A stretch of 64,000 nucleotides of DNA, from assembly GCF_014042165.1 (NCBI RefSeq), contig NZ_JACDZE010000001.1, forward strand, positions 1,448,595 through 1,512,594. The letters run 5' to 3'. The stretch comes from Moheibacter lacus (lineage in GTDB: Bacteria; Bacteroidota; Bacteroidia; Flavobacteriales; Weeksellaceae). Below, piece by piece: positions 27,495 to 35,782 of the stretch. The notes below the pieces were generated by a model that saw nothing but the letters and a program-made list of their open reading frames with translations, made no database searches and was not told where the DNA came from. The position numbers and the translations under genes were made by a program. Position 1 is the stretch's first letter; the number at the start of each line of letters is the position of its first letter.

Positions 27495-29741
27495 TTAATA
27501 ACTTAGATTCAAACCTACACCAAATCCCATATCGCTATCGTAATGCGTACGAATGGCGAAGTTTTTTGTGAGGATATAGCGCAATTCACCCATGTACTCC
27601 AAATCGGTATTGACCATGAATCCTGCTCTGATTCTTCTCGAAAAAGGGATATCTTCCCGCATCAAAGCCAATCGGACAATCCCGTCGTGATAAACTTCCG
27701 CTTGGAAATTGACCAGAAAAGGTAAAGTGTACATGAACCCGAGGCTGAATGCACTTCGGCTGTCTTTTTTATTGGTTTGTCCAAACAAGTTTTTTTCCTG
27801 TTCATCATGACCCATTTTTCGGTAGCGCCAATCAAATCCAATAAAAGGCATCAGCCATTGCATTTTTCCTATATAGCGTCCCAAATGGGTTTCTACTTCA
27901 TAGCCATGTGCGTCTTCATAACCCAAACGCCATTCTGAACCCAAACTCCAACGGGCATTTTGGATCATAGCTTCACCGTCGTTTCCGTTGGTCGCAAAAT
28001 CGTTGCTCGCCATGAAATGAAGCATATTGCTCTCGCGTTGAAGTGTTTTATAGGCTTTAGCTTTGTCGGGAAGCAATGGGTTTTGATAATCCCCAACCGT
28101 AAAAACCCGATTCATTCCCGCCATCATGTGATACAAAATATGACAATGAAAAAACCAATCGCCTTCTGTATTGGCTTCAAATTCTATAACATTGGTTTCC
28201 ATCGGCATGATGTCCATGACGTTTTTTAAAGGAGAATATTCCCCTTTTTCATTGATTAACCGAAAATCAAATCCATGTAGGTGCATTGGATGTCGCATCA
28301 TCGAATTGTTATACAAAGTGATGCGTAGGATTTCGCCTTTTTTTACCGGAATTTTATCGACCTCAGAAAGCACTTTATTGTCCATGCTCCAAACATATCG
28401 GTTCATGTTTCCAGTGAGTTCAAACCGCAATTCTTTTACAGGAGCACTAGGATTTAATGTGGTTTTATGAGGAGATTGAAGCATATTGTAATTGAGTGTG
28501 GTGATGCTTGCAGGAGGCATGGAATGGTTCATGTCGTGTTGCGAATGATCCATAGACTCCATCGATTGGTCATTTTCTAATTCCGGATACATGACAGCAT
28601 TCATATCCATCGTTTGCAAACTCATTTTCATTCCCATATCATGCATATCTCCATTCATTTTCATCATTTCATTCATCATTTTCATTCCTTCGAAATATTT
28701 GAGTTTGGGCAATCGGTTGACCAATTGTTTTACGCCTTCACCAACAAATAATGACGCATTTCCGGAACGGTCTTCCGGTGTTGCCAGAAGCTCGTAGGAA
28801 ACTTCCGAATCAGGAATGGTCAGTATGATGTCATAATTCTCCGAAACACCTACGATCAAACGATCTACTTCTATAGGTTCGACGTCATTTCCATCGTTTC
28901 CGACGACGGTAATTTTGCCTCCGGCATAGGTCAGCCAGAAATAAGAAGATGCACCGGCATTTGAAATTCGCAGCCGAACTTTATCGCCGGCTTTGAATTG
29001 ACTCAATTGATTCTCTTCTTGACCATTGATGAGAAATTTTTCATAGTAAACATCGCTGACATCCATGGCTTCCATCCGTTTCCATTCGTTGACCAATTTG
29101 GTTTTGAAGTGTCCTTCTTTTATGGCTTCGGCATAACTTTGAACTGCATTTTTTTTGATGGCGGCATAATCATTTCCCGTACTTAGCATGCGTTGAATTT
29201 GATGTGGATTTAGATTGGTCCATTCGCTCAGCGTAATGGAAATACTCGGTAAATCATCGATCCCTTTTCTAAAAGTCGGATCATCTTTTTTCTTTAAAAA
29301 CACAATCGACCCATACATCCCGATTTGTTCCTGAAATCCGGAATGACTATGGTACCAATAGGTTCCGTTCTGTTTGACCGGAAATCGGTAGACATGGGTT
29401 TCACCTGGCATGACCGGCATTTGTGTGAGAAAGGGAACACCATCTTCTTTGTTGGGCAATTGTACACCGTGCCAATGCAGAGAAGTCGATTCCTTTTTCA
29501 ATTGGTTGTGTAGCACAATTTCAGCAGTATCACCTTCCGTAAAAGTCAATGTAGGCATCGGAATTTGTCCGTTTACAGCGATGGCTCTTTTTGATTTTCC
29601 CGCATAATTTACCATCGTATCTTTTGCATACAATTCGTAGCGAACTGTTTTTTGTGCCAAAAGAGAATTGGAAAATAAAAGAATAAAACTGACCAAAACT
29701 GTTTTTATAAATATGTTTTTGCGAATGCTCATCGTATTCAT
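27495..29741 (-). CDS. Multicopper oxidase (CopA-like) with barrel-like C-terminal domain
   Basis: Periplasmic or envelope copper oxidase, 748 aa, probably oxidising Cu(I). A signal peptide (ends NSLLAQ) is followed by three cupredoxin regions with all ligand motifs: LHWHG, WYHSHSG, HPMHLHGFDF and HCHILYHMMAGM. A Met/His-rich stretch (about residues 355-420, such as MKMMNEMMKM) resembles the copper-binding loop of PcoA/CopA. After the oxidase, roughly 190 residues (EWRLGYEDAHGYEVETHLGR to the C-terminal VGLNLSY) look like antiparallel beta-strands of an outer-membrane barrel, reminiscent of CopB. It lies 15 bases after the HMA-DUF3347 gene. Confidence 0.9.
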   Translation of the reverse strand: MNTMSIRKNIFIKTVLVSFILLFSNSLLAQKTVRYELYAKDTMVNYAGKSKRAIAVNGQIPMPTLTFTEGDTAEIVLHNQLKKESTSLHWHGVQLPNKEDGVPFLTQMPVMPGETHVYRFPVKQNGTYWYHSHSGFQEQIGMYGSIVFLKKKDDPTFRKGIDDLPSISITLSEWTNLNPHQIQRMLSTGNDYAAIKKNAVQSYAEAIKEGHFKTKLVNEWKRMEAMDVSDVYYEKFLINGQEENQLSQFKAGDKVRLRISNAGASSYFWLTYAGGKITVVGNDGNDVEPIEVDRLIVGVSENYDIILTIPDSEVSYELLATPEDRSGNASLFVGEGVKQLVNRLPKLKYFEGMKMMNEMMKMNGDMHDMGMKMSLQTMDMNAVMYPELENDQSMESMDHSQHDMNHSMPPASITTLNYNMLQSPHKTTLNPSAPVKELRFELTGNMNRYVWSMDNKVLSEVDKIPVKKGEILRITLYNNSMMRHPMHLHGFDFRLINEKGEYSPLKNVMDIMPMETNVIEFEANTEGDWFFHCHILYHMMAGMNRVFTVGDYQNPLLPDKAKAYKTLQRESNMLHFMASNDFATNGNDGEAMIQNARWSLGSEWRLGYEDAHGYEVETHLGRYIGKMQWLMPFIGFDWRYRKMGHDEQEKNLFGQTNKKDSRSAFSLGFMYTLPFLVNFQAEVYHDGIVRLALMREDIPFSRRIRAGFMVNTDLEYMGELRYILTKNFAIRTHYDSDMGFGVGLNLSY

Positions 29742-29756
29742 TTAGGAATTAAAGGA

Positions 29757-30659
29757 TCATTGAATCGTTTCAACCGTACTTCCACAACTCATCATTTTTG
29801 AGCCATAATAGGGATTTTTGATTGGATTTTCTTTGCTTAACCAATTGGCGCCTTTTCCACCATTGTACATCGGACAATTTTGATAATGAATCGGATATTG
29901 CATGTCAGATGCTTTTGCCAAATCGTAAAAGTTTGTCGATAAGCTTGAAAAATGTTTGCGTTGGGTTTCAAGGTCTTTTGAATTTGAAATTGATTTCACA
30001 TCAGAATTGATTTCTTTTAAAATTTTCATCCAAACCATATGTTCTTTATGTTCCAATTTTTCCATTTTCACGTTTTCGATGGCTTTGACTAAATTGGAAG
30101 CGGCTATGGAAGCGGATTTTGCGTCTGAAAGCACCAAAGCATCTTTGAGTGAAAAATAGGTTTCAAAAACCGTATTCAGTTCATGGTTTTCCGATTTTGA
30201 AGTTGTGTTTTCATTTGAAGATTGTTCCATTTTATGGGATTGATGAGCCATGTTGTTTGAATGGTTTTCATGCTTCATTTCTGTTGAATGGTTTTCATGT
30301 TTCATCGTTGCATCAGAATGATCGCGTTCGTACTGACAACAGCCTGGCAATGCTGCATAGACTTCGTCTGGAGCCAAATAGGCATCATTATCATAGCCGG
30401 ACAATGCGATTCGTTTTAAGATTTCGTCTTTATTGGTTTGAAGGCTATCGAAACTGATAGTGGCTGTTTTGGATTTTTGGTCCCAATTTACTTCAGCTAC
30501 TTTTTTAAGGTTACCGGCTTTTTCGATGGTGGTTTTGCACATTCCGCAATTTCCTTTGATGTTTTCGGAAATCGTTTTGGTGTTTTTGATTTGAGATTGG
30601 CAAGTGATAAATAATAAGAATGCCAAAGAAGTCAGGGTATATTTAATTGTTAATTGCAT
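29757..30659 (-). CDS. HMA and DUF3347 domain copper-binding lipoprotein
   Basis: A 300-aa envelope protein. The leader ends LLFITC, a lipobox with Cys20. Next comes a heavy-metal-associated domain with the CGMCKTTIEK metal site (about residues 38-100), then a His/Met-rich linker with repeats of the KHENHS type, then a DUF3347 domain ending in HYQNCPMYNGGKGANWL and MMSCGS. The Cys, His and Met residues suit copper transfer to the downstream oxidase. It is the first gene of the two-gene unit with the oxidase. Confidence 0.88.
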   Translation of the reverse strand: MQLTIKYTLTSLAFLLFITCQSQIKNTKTISENIKGNCGMCKTTIEKAGNLKKVAEVNWDQKSKTATISFDSLQTNKDEILKRIALSGYDNDAYLAPDEVYAALPGCCQYERDHSDATMKHENHSTEMKHENHSNNMAHQSHKMEQSSNENTTSKSENHELNTVFETYFSLKDALVLSDAKSASIAASNLVKAIENVKMEKLEHKEHMVWMKILKEINSDVKSISNSKDLETQRKHFSSLSTNFYDLAKASDMQYPIHYQNCPMYNGGKGANWLSKENPIKNPYYGSKMMSCGSTVETIQ

Positions 30660-30763
30660 AATGGATTTTTTATTCGGATAGTTCCGATGGTTAAATAATT
30701 TGAACGATTTATTCAGGGACTTTTCGTCCCGAATGGATATAATTTAGGCTGTCAAAATTAAAA

Positions 30764-31129
30764 TTAACCTATTTTGGGCGGTTGCCAAATGAATTGATAA
30801 TCAGTAGAGTATAACGTAGAGATGTAATTGATTTCCTCTATAAAATTTTTGAAATCAATCCCTAAATCTATATTTGAAACCTGTAAAAAGAAGAAACTAA
30901 AAGAAACGGATGAGCAAGTGCAGGAAGAATGACCGCAATTTCCATTACAATCATTGTCTGTTTTTTTGTCCGTATTTTCTTTTTTGCAACAATCCTTTTT
31001 TTCTTTTTCAGAACTGGATTTGGAACAGCAGGTTTTTTCTGTTTTGGATGCACTGCATGCAAAACTTGTATTGGGAATCAATAGGATCCCAAATAGAAAG
31101 AAGCAGTATATGAAAAAACGATTTCTCAT
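30764..31129 (-). CDS. Small secreted Cys-rich protein, probably metal-binding
   Basis: A 121-aa protein with a signal peptide (cut near NTSFA). The mature part has eleven Cys in about 50 residues, in CC, CxxxC and CxC arrangements with many Lys (TCCSKSS, DCCKKEN, CNGNCGHSSCTC). The C terminus ends FIWQPPKIG, an ending seen in small Bacteroidetes envelope proteins. No family name recognised. Its place upstream of the copper genes suggests copper buffering. A 104-base gap with a bulged hairpin (30712-30733) separates it from the next gene. Confidence 0.72.
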   Translation of the reverse strand: MRNRFFIYCFFLFGILLIPNTSFACSASKTEKTCCSKSSSEKEKKDCCKKENTDKKTDNDCNGNCGHSSCTCSSVSFSFFFLQVSNIDLGIDFKNFIEEINYISTLYSTDYQFIWQPPKIG

Positions 31130-31202: not shown

Positions 31203-31241
31203 GGTAAAAAACTGAACTTTTCTTACCGAAAAGTTCAGTTT
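31203..31241 (-). terminator. Terminator of the cytochrome operon
   Basis: A perfect 14-bp stem (31209-31222 with 31228-31241) with a 5-base loop. On the minus strand it is followed by T6, so it ends the transcript of the gene at 31258. Confidence 0.92.
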
Positions 31242-31257: not shown

Positions 31258-32373
31258 TTAAAAACAATCTTCTTCAAACGAGTTGATCCAATTGGTAATC
31301 AAAGTTACAGATTCTTCATGAACGATGGTTCTACCTACCACTGGCATTTTAAAACTATCGTCGACAGATATCATACGGTAATAAAGCACTGATTTTTCAT
31401 GATTTCCGGGAAATACCACATGATGGACACCATCCGGAATTTCCGGATGTCCGCCCAGGTTGGGTTCGACACAGAATCCCATTGCCTGATAATCAGGAGT
31501 AGGTGTATAATTCAATCGCAAAGGATAGAATTCGGCGTAGCCTTGGTCTTTATGGCAATGTCCGCAATTGATTTCAAAATAGGATCTTGCCCGCATATCC
31601 AATGATTGGGAAGCGTCGTTATAATCTACAATCGAATTGATATTGGCCGGAACTTCGTTGCTGATATAACCAAATTCCTTTAATTTTTGCAATTGGTTCA
31701 TTTGACCATCTTCATATTGGATGGCAAAATTGAGGTTCTGAGGCTTAGGTCCGAGCGGGTGGTTGGCTCCGCTATTATAGTGACACATGAAGCACTGAGA
31801 ACTACTTGGGATTTGGTATTGAATGTCGCGTTGTACGCCATTATGCATCCAACTAATCGGAACAAAAATCAAGTCTTCAGAGAGAAAGGCCTCGGTTTGT
31901 TCTTCGTTCCAAACATAATTGGCAAAAATCCATCCTTCCGATTTCATGATCATCAAGCGGGTTTCGATGATTTTTTTAGTGTTTCCCGGAATTACATTTT
32001 CATAGTAAAAACTCTTGATTAAAATGGTTCCAACCGGGAAATTTATAGGTTCATTATCTTGTCCTATGCTTGCACTGGAATTTTCCGGCATCCAGACAAA
32101 TCGTTCTTTTTTGGCATAATCCGTAAAAAGTTGCGAAGCTGGTTGAAATGGAAGTACGCCATAAACCGGGTCTTGGTCTGACATGGGAGATTTGAAAAAA
32201 TTATAGTCCGATAATTTGGGATGAGGATCTGCATTGATTTCATAAACTACCGGAGAAACTTCAATCGGATCATCATCGTCATCTATGATGATAGGAGCAT
32301 CATCTCCGGAACAATTGATGAGCCAAACTGAAAGAAATAAATAAGTAAATAAGGTCTTAAATTTTAATTGCAT
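31258..32373 (-). CDS. Diheme cytochrome c lipoprotein (SO2930-like)
   Basis: Envelope electron-transfer protein, 371 aa from the ATG at 32373; a longer frame from 32409 exists, but the ATG at 32373 leads straight into the lipoprotein signal ending WLINC. A run of Asp follows the lipidated Cys. Two heme c motifs are present: CFMCH (194-198) and CGHCH (270-274). Further features shared with the gene at 34065 are PKLSDY(N/H)FFK, YGVLPF, ERFVWMPEN, GWIFANYVWNE and VFPGNHEKSVLYYRM. The family is known from Shewanella as SO2930; its role is unknown. It is the last gene of the three-gene operon. Confidence 0.85.
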   Translation of the reverse strand: MQLKFKTLFTYLFLSVWLINCSGDDAPIIIDDDDDPIEVSPVVYEINADPHPKLSDYNFFKSPMSDQDPVYGVLPFQPASQLFTDYAKKERFVWMPENSSASIGQDNEPINFPVGTILIKSFYYENVIPGNTKKIIETRLMIMKSEGWIFANYVWNEEQTEAFLSEDLIFVPISWMHNGVQRDIQYQIPSSSQCFMCHYNSGANHPLGPKPQNLNFAIQYEDGQMNQLQKLKEFGYISNEVPANINSIVDYNDASQSLDMRARSYFEINCGHCHKDQGYAEFYPLRLNYTPTPDYQAMGFCVEPNLGGHPEIPDGVHHVVFPGNHEKSVLYYRMISVDDSFKMPVVGRTIVHEESVTLITNWINSFEEDCF

Positions 32374-32441
32374 GTGCTGTGTTAATTGGGAGAAATTATC
32401 CTTTTGCATATCACAAAAGGATAATTTGATTAATGATTAAA

Positions 32442-34040
32442 TTATTGTTTTATGAATTTCAGCGTTGAAATTTTTCCTTCAGATTTAACGGATATGATGT
32501 AAATACCTTTGGCTAAGTGTTTTACATTTATTTTTCCATTATTGACTTTTCCGTTCATCATTTTTGCACCTGTAATGTGGAAGATTTCAAAATTTGAATT
32601 TTCAATAGAAGTTCCTTGTATGTTTAGGATGTCTTTTACCGGGTTGGGATAAATGCTAAATAGTTTGCTTTCCAAATCTGAAACACTCATTTGATGGTCT
32701 CCTTCTACGATTACCAAAGTGGAATTGATATCAGGGTTTTCAATTACATCTACGATTCCAGATGGCCAACGTACGATTACTTGTTGAATTTCATGATCAG
32801 AACCTATTCCAAAATGGGTATTTAATGTGTTCATTTCACTAAATCCTTCGCCACTTCTTACATCGCGAATTTGTTTGCCCATTGCCGTATAAATTTCAAC
32901 TCTTGCTCCGATTCCGTTGAGGTTACTTTCTGTTCCAATTGTGTTGATTGTTAGCCAGTTGTTTAAATTCCCATTGTTCAAATAAATTTCCCCAAATGTA
33001 AATGCATCTAAAAATCCATCGTTATTTAAATCTCCAATACTAGCGGTCGAAAAAGGTACATTTACTGGAGAAAAAGTCATGTCTCCATTGTTGATCATCA
33101 CTTTGTCTCCACTTCCGTACACATCAACCCATCCGTCGTTATTAAAATCCGCCAGAGCATAAATCCAACTGGTATGATTGAAATTATCAAAGCCTGAACC
33201 GGAAGTTACATCAGTAAAAGTTCCGTCACCATTGTTACGCATCAATTTTTGTCCACCGGTACTGAAAGAACTTACGCCCACCATCGCATCCATAAAGCCG
33301 TCATTGTTAAAATCAGCCCAGGCAGTTGACCAGGTTTGGGTTGTAAGATCCATATTGGCCATAGAAGCGACATCAGTAAAAGTTCCATCACCATTGTTTC
33401 GGAATAAATTGTCAGTATAACGTTCTTCTTCACCACCACATTTGGACATGTGCATATCGATCAGACCATCGTTGTTATAATCCACCCAAAGCGAACCGTA
33501 ATGACCTCCGTCCGGATAATCTCCAATTCCTCCCTGATGATAATCCAAATTGTTTTCTCCATCATTGAGGTAATAAACATTGGGTGCAACATCATGACAT
33601 ACAAAAGCATCCAAATGTCCATCATTGTTGATGTCCACAAAATTAGTGCGTTGAGAGAAAATGTATTGTCCGGGAGAGTTTTCTACAAAGCCATTTCCGG
33701 TTCCGTCTGAAAACATAAAAGTAGCTCCATTATGCCCACCATAAAGTAGATCATTGTAACCATCTGCGTTGAAATCACCGGCAGCCAATGTCCATCCCGG
33801 ATTATTATCAGCCGGAGAAGTCGGGAAGTTTTGAGCATCAAACCCTGATTCTGACTGAAAAAGGATATTGATATTGGTACTGCTTACCGATACGATATCA
33901 TCCAAAAAGTCACCGTTCATATCGACTACACAACGCTGGTAACTCCCTTGAGAAGGTACTTCTATTGTCGTGAAATTGAGCTGTGCATCTAGAGATATAC
34001 ATGCTAAAACAGCAGTTAAGAGTAAAATATTCCTTTTCAT
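32442..34040 (-). CDS. T9SS-secreted FG-GAP repeat protein with ASPIC/UnbV domain
   Basis: A 532-aa surface or secreted protein. A signal peptide ends SLDAQ. Residues about 25-350 are FG-GAP/VCBS repeats with many calcium-type loops (DMNGDFLDD, DFNADGYND, DINNDGHLD, DFNNDGWVD), forming a beta-propeller. Next comes an ASPIC/UnbV domain (NGIGARVEIYTAMGKQIRDV to VRWPSGIVDVIENP), then a T9SS type A sorting domain from IYPNPVKD to the end. It sits between two diheme cytochromes with gaps of 24 and 68 bases, so coordinated expression is very likely. Confidence 0.9.
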   Translation of the reverse strand: MKRNILLLTAVLACISLDAQLNFTTIEVPSQGSYQRCVVDMNGDFLDDIVSVSSTNINILFQSESGFDAQNFPTSPADNNPGWTLAAGDFNADGYNDLLYGGHNGATFMFSDGTGNGFVENSPGQYIFSQRTNFVDINNDGHLDAFVCHDVAPNVYYLNDGENNLDYHQGGIGDYPDGGHYGSLWVDYNNDGLIDMHMSKCGGEEERYTDNLFRNNGDGTFTDVASMANMDLTTQTWSTAWADFNNDGFMDAMVGVSSFSTGGQKLMRNNGDGTFTDVTSGSGFDNFNHTSWIYALADFNNDGWVDVYGSGDKVMINNGDMTFSPVNVPFSTASIGDLNNDGFLDAFTFGEIYLNNGNLNNWLTINTIGTESNLNGIGARVEIYTAMGKQIRDVRSGEGFSEMNTLNTHFGIGSDHEIQQVIVRWPSGIVDVIENPDINSTLVIVEGDHQMSVSDLESKLFSIYPNPVKDILNIQGTSIENSNFEIFHITGAKMMNGKVNNGKINVKHLAKGIYIISVKSEGKISTLKFIKQ

Positions 34041-34064
34041 GTGCGTATTAATTTAGTTTATAGT

Positions 34065-35171
34065 TTATTCGCAGTTTTCTACTTGTGAATCAATCCATTC
34101 GCTGATCATTTCAACAGCTTCATCATGGATCAATGTTCTGCCTCGTAAAGGCATTCGGTAACTTTCTTCTACAGTATTCAATCGATAATAAATCACCGAT
34201 TTTTCATGATCTCCCGGATAAATGATATGCGTAGGTTCACCGACTTCCGGCCAATGCGTGATGTCCTCATCGGGTGTTATGCATATTCCCATTTTATCAT
34301 GTTCATGCGTCCTTTCAAATCCAAACCGCATGTATCGATAATTACAAAATCCGTTGTCAGAGTGGCAATGTGCGCAATTGATGTCCAAATAAGACCTAAC
34401 TCTTAATTCTAAATCTTGGTTTTCATCATGATAATCCACCAAAGTATTAATCTGGTTTGGGAAATCAGTTAAATACCCAAATTCTTTCCATTTCGCTAAT
34501 TGATTTTTTGTTTCACCATCATAAGTGTAATTTTTATTCAAATGTTGGGGTTTGGTACCAATAGGAAGTGGAATCTCACTCGAATTATGACAAGTGACGC
34601 ACTCAGCGCCATGTGGAATTCTATAATTGACTTCTTTCGTTTGGCCGTTTTCTGACCAAATAACCGGAACAAAACCTCCATCCATATTATAAAAAGCCTC
34701 CGTTTGATCTTCATTCCAAACGTAATTCGCAAAAATCCATTCGCCTGCAATTTTAATCATCAATCGGGTTTCAAGGATTTGGGTTAAATTTCCGGGTTGC
34801 ACTTTTTCATAGTAAAAATTCTTGATCAAAGCTGTACCATTAGGAAAATTCAGCGTTTTAGCATCACCATCAAAACTGGCTGAGACGTTTTCCGGCATCC
34901 ATACAAATCTTTTCTTTTTTGCATAATCAGAAAACAAACTTGAAATCGGCTCATAAGGAAGGACGCCATAAACTGGTTCTAAATCAGAGAGCGGTAATTT
35001 GAAAAAATGATAATCCGATAATTTTGGATAGGGAACCGCATCTAAATCCATCACAACAGGAGAAACTTCCTCTGCTTCTTCCTCAGGAATGCCTTCATTA
35101 TCAGAAGAACATGACTGCAAAAGAATCAGGAAAATCCATAAAATTCCATAGAATGGATGGGTAATTTTCAA
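34065..35171 (-). CDS. Diheme cytochrome c lipoprotein (SO2930-like), second copy
   Basis: A 368-aa paralogue of the gene at 31258. The likely start is a TTG at 35171, since no ATG lies in frame upstream and the signal follows at once (ends LLQSC, lipidated Cys21). An acidic stretch follows. Heme motifs are CVTCH (191-195) and CAHCH (266-270). The two copies agree in length, motif spacing and most conserved blocks but clearly differ in sequence, so the duplication is old. It is the first gene of the operon, downstream of a -7 element at 35195. Confidence 0.85.
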   Translation of the reverse strand: MKITHPFYGILWIFLILLQSCSSDNEGIPEEEAEEVSPVVMDLDAVPYPKLSDYHFFKLPLSDLEPVYGVLPYEPISSLFSDYAKKKRFVWMPENVSASFDGDAKTLNFPNGTALIKNFYYEKVQPGNLTQILETRLMIKIAGEWIFANYVWNEDQTEAFYNMDGGFVPVIWSENGQTKEVNYRIPHGAECVTCHNSSEIPLPIGTKPQHLNKNYTYDGETKNQLAKWKEFGYLTDFPNQINTLVDYHDENQDLELRVRSYLDINCAHCHSDNGFCNYRYMRFGFERTHEHDKMGICITPDEDITHWPEVGEPTHIIYPGDHEKSVIYYRLNTVEESYRMPLRGRTLIHDEAVEMISEWIDSQVENCE

Positions 35172-35194: not shown

Positions 35195-35202
35195 CAAATT
35201 TA
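35195..35202 (-). promoter_or_regulatory. Promoter -7 element of the cytochrome operon
   Basis: Minus-strand TAAATTTG, 23 bases before the TTG start; no clear -33 box. Confidence 0.45.
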
Positions 35203-35273: not shown

Positions 35274-35281
35274 TATCTTTG
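35274..35281 (+). promoter_or_regulatory. -7 element abutting the Smr gene start
   Basis: TATCTTTG ends only 3 bases before the ATG at 35285. If it is used, the transcript would be leaderless. TTTC lies at the -33 distance. Confidence 0.4.
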
Positions 35282-35284
35282 ATT

Positions 35285-35782
35285 ATGTTTAAAATAGGGG
35301 ATAAAGTAAAAGTAATCGATGATGACCAAAAAGGCATTGTCAAACAGATTCATCAAAATCGAATTACAATTGAAAATGAATTTGGTTTTGAAGAAATTTA
35401 CCTTTCACATGAAATCTTACTTGATGAGAGTTTGGAAATCAGTCATGTAGAAATGGATTTCTCAGAGAAATCCAAATCAAAACCCAGAGGAAATCCTTTA
35501 TCAGAAATCAAAGAAATCGATCTGCACATCGGTCAATTGGTAGATTCTTATAAAAATTTATCCAACTACGAAATGCTCCAAATCCAACTTCAAACCATCG
35601 AAAACGAAGTCGAATTGGCCAGAACAGAAAGAAGAAACCGATTGGTTTTTATTCATGGTCATGGCTCGGGAAAATTAAAAGAAGAAATGATGAATCTTTT
35701 AAACCGATACAAAGGAATCGAAATTTATGATGCTTCTTATCGGAAATTCAGAGGAGGCGCAACGGAAGTAAAATTCAGGTGA
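35285..35782 (+). CDS. Smr domain protein (DUF2027-like N terminus)
   Basis: A 165-aa cytoplasmic protein. The N-terminal 50 residues form a small beta module (FKIGDKVKVIDDDQKGIV) like the start of DUF2027 proteins; the C-terminal half is an Smr domain with EIDLHIGQLVDSY, FIHGHGSGKLKEEM and YDASYRKFRGGATEV. Smr domains nick branched DNA or cleave RNA at stalled ribosomes; which applies here is unknown. It is shorter than the Bacteroides relatives, which carry an extra middle domain. No upstream in-frame ATG is available. Confidence 0.85.
   Translation: MFKIGDKVKVIDDDQKGIVKQIHQNRITIENEFGFEEIYLSHEILLDESLEISHVEMDFSEKSKSKPRGNPLSEIKEIDLHIGQLVDSYKNLSNYEMLQIQLQTIENEVELARTERRNRLVFIHGHGSGKLKEEMMNLLNRYKGIEIYDASYRKFRGGATEVKFR

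Follow-up and report, generated by a model that had tools for sequence, protein, structure and literature searches.

The window analysed here is a 64,000-nucleotide stretch of Moheibacter lacus DNA (NCBI RefSeq assembly GCF_014042165.1, contig NZ_JACDZE010000001.1, positions 1,448,595 to 1,512,594 of the forward strand), in which positions 31,258 to 35,171 carry, all on the minus strand, the genes for a diheme lipoprotein, CytA (34065–35171, 368 residues), an FG-GAP propeller protein with an ASPIC/UnbV domain, UnbV (32442–34040, 532 residues), and a second diheme lipoprotein with the architecture of CytA, CytB (31258–32409, 383 residues). The pairing of such a heme protein with such a propeller is conserved across flavobacteria, and the N-terminal half of the cytochromes appears to be a P460/c'-β-fold domain, an unrecognised relative of cytochrome P460, joined to a cytochrome c-like domain. 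We incline slightly towards the view that these genes specify a redox module of the cell surface, in which a two-heme lipoprotein oxidoreductase would work with a secreted partner. To the preliminary description of this locus, which had proposed an envelope redox system encoded by the three genes as one unit, and which is supported on both points, the present analysis adds the predicted P460-fold heme domain, the exchange of UnbV for a TIGR03805-type partner, fusions to GSDH-type dehydrogenases and acidic N-termini that resemble an export signal.

The conserved unit is the pair, a cytochrome gene followed by UnbV, and not the trio. The loci scanned were 42 found with CytA as query, a set biased towards its clade, and 60 survey regions, which represent the majority, though not the entirety, of the longer matches from three family surveys (8 of 59 genomes; 46 of 247, many of them short C-terminal matches; and 35 of 395 in an order survey at E ≤ 1e-20); the cytochrome, ASPIC-region and beta-helix profiles used for the scan were custom-built from sequences collected in this analysis. 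A tree of 106 cytochromes was made by a quick method with Shimodaira–Hasegawa approximate likelihood ratio test (SH-aLRT) supports, omitting hits with a score below 200 or a span below 270 (the L113 giant, L114, L076 and the L145 pieces), 4-kb loci that were replaced by longer ones, and survey hits without longer regions (among them G387, G580, G529 and G614). It contains a UnbV-type clade of 68 cytochromes (SH-aLRT 98), 64 of which lie within 300 nt of a UnbV gene. UnbV is downstream of 60 of these, with gaps of -34 to 69 nt and one of 294, and upstream of four second cytochromes; the remaining four clade members are two upstream twins of paired copies (L119_5827 and L056_5984) and two orphans. 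The 64 paired rows represent 60 places, and since the cytochrome–UnbV–cytochrome trio is present at only four of them (the window, L041, L059 and L063), the trio was rejected as the functional unit; the second cytochrome is a duplication and not an essential part. Of the co-occurrence in other genomes that the preliminary description made its test, the pair thus shows it almost always within its clade, whereas the trio is uncommon. On the tree the four L059 and L063 copies group together, apart from the rest (98), which indicates a doubling separate from that in Moheibacter, where the grouping is weaker (87–92). Of the relatives found, the best comes from a contig of an uncultured Moheibacter (L041).

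Of the 35 carrier genomes of the order survey, 23 were classed as UnbV-type, 21 from the tree and two (G387 and G580) from the UnbV gene next to the cytochrome; an adjacent cytochrome–UnbV pair occurs at least once in each of the 23. At E ≤ 0.001 the 2.77-Mb M. lacus genome holds two TIGR03806 genes, CytA and CytB only, and two UnbV genes; with so few, and with the adjacency recurring in many other genera, several of them with different neighbouring open reading frames (ORFs), the association is more than chance.

CytA and CytB share 52% identity over 335 aligned positions, have two CxxCH motifs each and begin with lipoprotein-like N-termini, as expected from the earlier proposal of two diverged SO2930-like diheme paralogues on either side of UnbV. 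Both match TIGR03806, the ‘SO2930 family diheme c-type cytochrome’ (CytA, E 2.7e-81, 273.2 bits; CytB, E 2.5e-85, 286.4 bits), in alignments that span nearly the whole model, at scores under the curated cut-off of 313.3 bits; judged by these scores, they are homologous relatives of the family rather than strict members. No match to the beta-helix family TIGR03805 was found in the genome at E ≤ 0.001, and UnbV adjoins the cytochromes instead. The di-heme peroxidase profile CCP_MauG matched 2 of 50 family members (best E 0.038), and its search returned neither CytA nor CytB. Arg88, Glu134, Arg136, both CxxCH motifs and Met340-Pro341 are present in all 106 cytochrome rows, and Lys117 and Lys86 in 105. 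In CytA the second CxxCH (C266-x-x-C269-H270) and M340-P341 fall within residues ∼236–368 (34068–34466, minus strand), which are predicted to form a cytochrome c-like domain; Pfam cytochrome matches also fall on this half in several relatives.

Residues ∼40–235 of CytA (34467–35054, minus strand), which contain the first heme motif, C191-x-x-C194-H195, are predicted to form a heme domain of the cytochrome P460/c'-β fold, and it is this fold that is new here. The prediction draws on structural comparison by VIA-align, on profile comparison by hhalign with its controls, and on residue conservation. The AlphaFold2 model of CytA (50 relatives) has a mean predicted local distance difference test score (pLDDT) of 93.3. 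When VIA-align was applied to Foldseek candidates for this model, the nine best Protein Data Bank (PDB) entries were all c'-β or P460 proteins, beginning with 7s5o (Z 7.1, 122 aligned, 3.7 Å) and 7ead (Z 6.7) and ending with 6e0z (Z 4.9), and the next row had Z 3.3. Because this tool warns that Z below 8 can reflect a merely common arrangement, a sequence-profile test of the fold was run, with an alignment of 13 Bacteroidota P460 domains as the hhalign target. The whole family matched at 84.7% and its N-terminal half at 91.9%, with scores of 43–51 over the sets; 30 rows, mostly of the UnbV clade, gave 94.8%, and the other 20 gave 92.0%. Forty column permutations for each of two sets gave a maximum score of 17.4 against real scores of 44.8 and 51.2, while reversed profiles scored 13.1 and 16.2, the C-terminal half 23.2 (12%) and UnbV 18.1. 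The Pfam family PF16694 gave weak matches in 13 of 50 members (best E 0.021), and in L022 the match covers profile positions 41–121 of 125 (E 0.41).

The heme pocket described for McP460 has a crosslinking lysine (Lys78), a carboxylate (Asp102) and a capping arginine (Arg50) (PMC11928373), and by our own count this numbering fits the 6hiu chain. CytA Lys117 (codon 34821–34823, minus strand) shares an alignment column, at a confidence of 9, with McP460 Lys78 and McCP-β Phe61; of the 13 P460 rows, 10 have K and 3 have F at this crosslink position. Arg88 (34908–34910, minus strand) falls on the position of the Arg50 cap with middling confidence (∼5). Glu134 (34770–34772, minus strand) stands opposite a gap, two residues N-terminal to Arg136 and on the same predicted strand, which is the strand that bears the distal carboxylate in P460. 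Taken with their conservation, Arg88, Lys117 and Glu134 are predicted to form a polar pocket around the first heme.

The middle gene had been described as an FG-GAP/ASPIC-UnbV protein exported by the type IX secretion system (T9SS), and its domains agree: FG-GAP_3 (six stretches), UnbV_ASPIC and Por_Secre_tail all score over their Pfam cut-offs, and the type A T9SS sorting domain TIGR04183 matches with 47.5 bits against a cut-off of 23. The structural model of UnbV (mean pLDDT 90.2) has the CRTAC1 fold, its best match being CRTAC1 itself (9etn; Z 36.9, 415 aligned, 2.7 Å, 21% identity, model residues 17–448). The next match is aldos-2-ulose dehydratase (Z 25.9); since the scores of integrins and further unrelated propellers come close to it, UnbV as a sugar enzyme was dropped. 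Seven calcium-type motifs suggest that the propeller has seven blades, and UnbV may bind calcium and glycan. The second UnbV gene of the genome (L083 1222–2934, on contig 6 of G000) encodes a protein only 29% identical to the UnbV of the window, and no cytochrome was found in the 3.2-kb stretch around it; the other rows of the UnbV alignment, all from cytochrome loci, are 43–79% identical to the window protein.

In related cytochromes the partner is exchanged. A beta-helix-type group of 20 rows (our own grouping, made up of L159 and 19 rows that share a branch with support 85) contains every match above the TIGR03806 cut-off in the three surveys; a beta-helix gene lies directly upstream in 16 of the 20, none of the 20 has UnbV, and no partner was detected in L149, L152, L154 and L157. 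No scanned locus carries both partners, and the two labels require a single change on the tree. TIGR03805 was confirmed in L003, L022 and L078, the three loci tested that showed it, and the tested neighbour of the L013/L149 cytochrome is a transporter. A plasmid search returned four distant hits, among them a cytochrome adjoining a beta-helix gene on a Novosphingobium plasmid and one beside a gene annotated as diheme cytochrome c-553. Four giant proteins fuse a GSDH-type sugar dehydrogenase to an SO2930-type two-heme region (L108 2667–7652; L112 2657–6745 and 9949–16434; L113 3234–7514), with lectin, malectin or PKD domains in three and a T9SS tail in two. The common theme of these partners may be a sugar-associated or surface protein. 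This exchange provides a handle on bacterial CRTAC1/UnbV proteins, for which we know of no function.

Further relatives were also seen. The two members tested of a third group have fn3 domains. In L079–L082 a Met-zincin gene (DUF4953/5117/5118) lies ∼130–150 nt downstream of an SO2930-type lipoprotein and is a possible partner; Pfam identified it in L079 and L080, while in L081 and L082 it was assigned from an ORF that agrees in length and position. In another of the plasmid hits, on a Pseudoalteromonas plasmid (L187 5001–5894), a cytochrome-like stretch lies inside a long gene annotated as a starch-binding protein, which adjoins a DUF1552 gene.

The lipoprotein-like N-termini, LQSC-SSDNE in CytA and LINC-SGDDA in CytB, place acidic residues at +2 to +6 after the lipid-bearing cysteine (CSSDNE and CSGDDA). 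Such a stretch resembles the Bacteroidetes surface lipoprotein export signal (PMC5080379), which suggests that both proteins are on the outer face of the cell. With the lipid cysteine chosen by a simple rule whose picks are visibly wrong in L066, L111, L136, L142 and L159, at least two acidic residues occur at +2 to +6 in 59 of 67 UnbV-clade rows as against 1 of 14 beta-helix-type rows. The genome has a SprA_N match over the cut-off, SprA being the T9SS part searched for, and a cytochrome c assembly gene. A surface cytochrome and a T9SS-secreted UnbV would meet outside the cell.

The gene pairing, the exchange of partners, the invariant residues and the CRTAC1 fold of the UnbV model are computed results, as is the P460-like fold, with the caveats given further on. 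From these we propose a mechanism in which surface location, physical contact, catalysis and the direction of electron flow are all inferred. The acidic signal next to the lipid-anchored cysteine would put the lipoprotein on the outer face, while UnbV, a CRTAC1-like calcium propeller, would exit through the type IX system and dock with it. A small molecule may then bind and react at the P460/c'-β-type heme, in the polar pocket of Arg88, Lys117 and Glu134, and the cytochrome c domain, with its predicted His/Met ligation, would carry electrons to or from this heme. UnbV could bring the substrate, most likely carbohydrate-linked, or hold the lipoprotein on it, and in the related groups the beta-helix protein or the fused sugar dehydrogenase would take over this role. 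A wider version, which we regard as rather doubtful, is that the whole SO2930 superfamily makes its own lysine-crosslinked P460 heme on the bacterial surface and is presented with substrate by exchangeable secreted partners (CRTAC1-like propeller, beta-helix or fused sugar dehydrogenase).

Several observations weigh against the main reading of a P460-type surface oxidoreductase. Foldseek with the CytA model returned nothing at E ≤ 0.001, the nine top VIA-align entries represent only five different proteins, and Z 7.1 is within the range that VIA-align treats as non-decisive. The local hhalign match covers only 38–52 columns and ends before CxxCH unless settings are relaxed; C191, C194 and H195, invariant in the 106 rows, are aligned to the P460 CxxCH only under relaxed or global settings. 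The P460 carboxylate position (Asp102/Glu96) is aligned to Arg136 (confidence 7). A sequence search of the PDB with CytA found no P460, and neither did the family profile, whose hits there were cytochrome c chains: the best, a c555 trimer, reached E 5.2e-8 summed over three repeats (E 1.5–1.9 each) and a single c552 chain E 0.13, both covering the first CxxCH. At E ≤ 1, 44 of 50 members are matched by Pfam Cytochrom_C, with its best stretch on the first CxxCH in CytA, CytB, L063 and L133, the last at 23.2 bits, over the cut-off of 21.3; in L013, L014, L015, L016, L022, L024 and L058 the best stretch is on the second CxxCH. These matches leave some room for the first site being that of an ordinary cytochrome c, though the motif alone predicts short CxxCH matches. 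The export-signal contrast is confounded with taxonomy, since 12 of 14 rows of the third group, mostly of fn3 type, are just as acidic. Clade members L060 and L118 are without UnbV nearby. A denitrification link was rejected, as nirK is found in 4 of 35 cytochrome carriers and 45 of 360 other genomes (Fisher p 1.0, cytochrome classes mixed) and in 1 of 23 UnbV-type carriers; respiratory N-oxide use is thus unsupported as far as NirK, the sole N-oxide gene searched for, can indicate.

Alternatively, the lipoproteins may be plain two-heme carriers that relay electrons between a surface enzyme and the envelope chain, with the first domain a scaffold or an ordinary cytochrome c; we consider this possible, if unlikely. 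Such a carrier would fit the weak matches to cytochrome c, which fall on both heme sites, and the invariant CxxCH and Met-Pro of the second domain, and in the GSDH fusions the role of surface enzyme would fall to the dehydrogenase. SO2930 and SO2931 are moreover listed as outer-membrane or extracellular cytochromes of Shewanella (PMC4837345, the only mention of SO2930 found in the open-licence papers searched), and SO2931, which was found in lists and deletion sets, belongs to the delta-omc-all deletion set (PMC5829830). A plain carrier would, however, have no obvious need for Arg88, Lys117 and Glu134, each of which is conserved in 105 or more of the 106 rows, and the CytA model fits c'-β/P460 better than any other listed fold. 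Furthermore, the CRTAC1 fold is not known to have a cofactor site by which UnbV could be the dehydrogenase.

It is distinctly improbable that the first heme is of a peroxidase or sensor type, acting on H2O2 or NO, with the pair serving in protection or signalling at the surface. The Arg-capped NeCP-β shows peroxidase-like activity and an NO-binding role has been proposed for cytochromes c'-β, but the Lys70Ala variant of NeP460 gains a peroxidase activity that is absent from the wild type (PMC11928373), so that the nearly invariant Lys117 at the crosslink position argues against a peroxidase. That cytochrome and UnbV are neighbours merely by inherited gene order, with no joint work, is disfavoured and very improbable: the pair of Winogradskyella litoriviva (L068) does lie among the housekeeping genes tk, alr, mscL and asd, and the ORF lengths of this stretch recur in many other loci, but the order and close spacing of the pair are kept where the pattern of flanking ORFs differs (the window, Mesonia L058/L061, L045 and L069), and G281 carries the pair twice, at separate loci (L109 and L111). 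As partners, tk, alr, mscL, asd, the prolyl oligopeptidase and the ABC ATPase were themselves rejected as inherited gene order, from Pfam matches in L068 only.

The gaps of 24 nt (CytA–UnbV) and 32 nt (UnbV–CytB), together with a hairpin of 14 bp with a 5-nt loop at 31209–31241 on the minus strand, bear out the close spacing and terminator described earlier. The hairpin, T-rich downstream on the minus strand, is the likely terminator of the unit; a generic terminator scan did not pick it up. CytA apparently starts at a TTG (window position 35171), nearby in-frame ATGs not suiting a lipoprotein signal peptide. Upstream, TAAATTTG at 35195–35202 (minus strand) is a candidate Bacteroidetes -7 element that fits the consensus TAnnTTTG; as to the single promoter side proposed earlier, a generic promoter scan gave matches at shuffled expectation. 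Divergent from the unit is a short MutS2/Smr-like protein (35279–35782, plus strand), with an ORF of the same length (167 residues) in the same place in L041. Just beyond the hairpin lies a probable copper-handling cluster (27495–31129, minus strand) of a small Cys/His-rich protein, an HMA and DUF3347 protein and a CopA-like multicopper oxidase, the last with an extra C-terminal region of ∼200 residues that is beta-barrel-like by eye. These copper genes were rejected as part of the unit, since they lie beyond the hairpin and do not adjoin the trio in L041; there the trio is followed by an ORF of the opposite strand and the contig ends.

The earlier suggestion that such a system had not been described agrees with our search of open-licence papers, which found no description; absence there is weak evidence. 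In the same literature no paper was found that mentions both SO2930 and cytochrome P460, again weak evidence, and no link of UnbV or CRTAC1 to the SO2930 family appeared among the matches listed. The best-known role of P460 hemes is the oxidation of hydroxylamine in organisms that oxidise ammonia or methane (PMC11928373). If the SO2930 family were of P460 type, such hemes would be lipid-anchored in many Bacteroidota and would include listed Shewanella outer-membrane cytochromes, and the nature of the heme could be tested by one spectrum. Should the reading of a surface lysine-crosslinked P460 heme hold, it would define a widespread, overlooked class of P460 enzymes and provide a function for bacterial CRTAC1 proteins.

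The system differs from each known one that it resembles. CytA and CytB share with the TIGR03806/TIGR03805 pair a two-domain architecture, the invariant residues, a mostly lipoprotein nature and a two-gene unit with a non-heme partner, whereas they score under the cut-off, form a separate clade and have UnbV downstream instead of a beta-helix gene upstream. Similar to P460 and c'-β cytochromes (McP460, 6hiu; NeCP-β, 7s5o) are the predicted fold, the late CxxCH, the lysine at the crosslink and the arginine at the cap; in contrast, CytA is lipid-anchored, has more sequence ahead of CxxCH, an arginine at the carboxylate position and a gene partner, and is joined to a further heme domain. UnbV has the propeller and ASPIC domain of CRTAC1 (9etn) but is bacterial, T9SS-tailed and encoded with a cytochrome. 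The nearest precedent is provided by hydrazine synthase (HZS)-like clusters, in which an FG-GAP/CRTAC1 family gene lies between the genes for HZS alpha and beta-gamma homologues (PMC12758564); the alpha and gamma subunits of HZS carry two hemes each, and the subunits encoded by these clusters are described as hydrazine synthase homologues.

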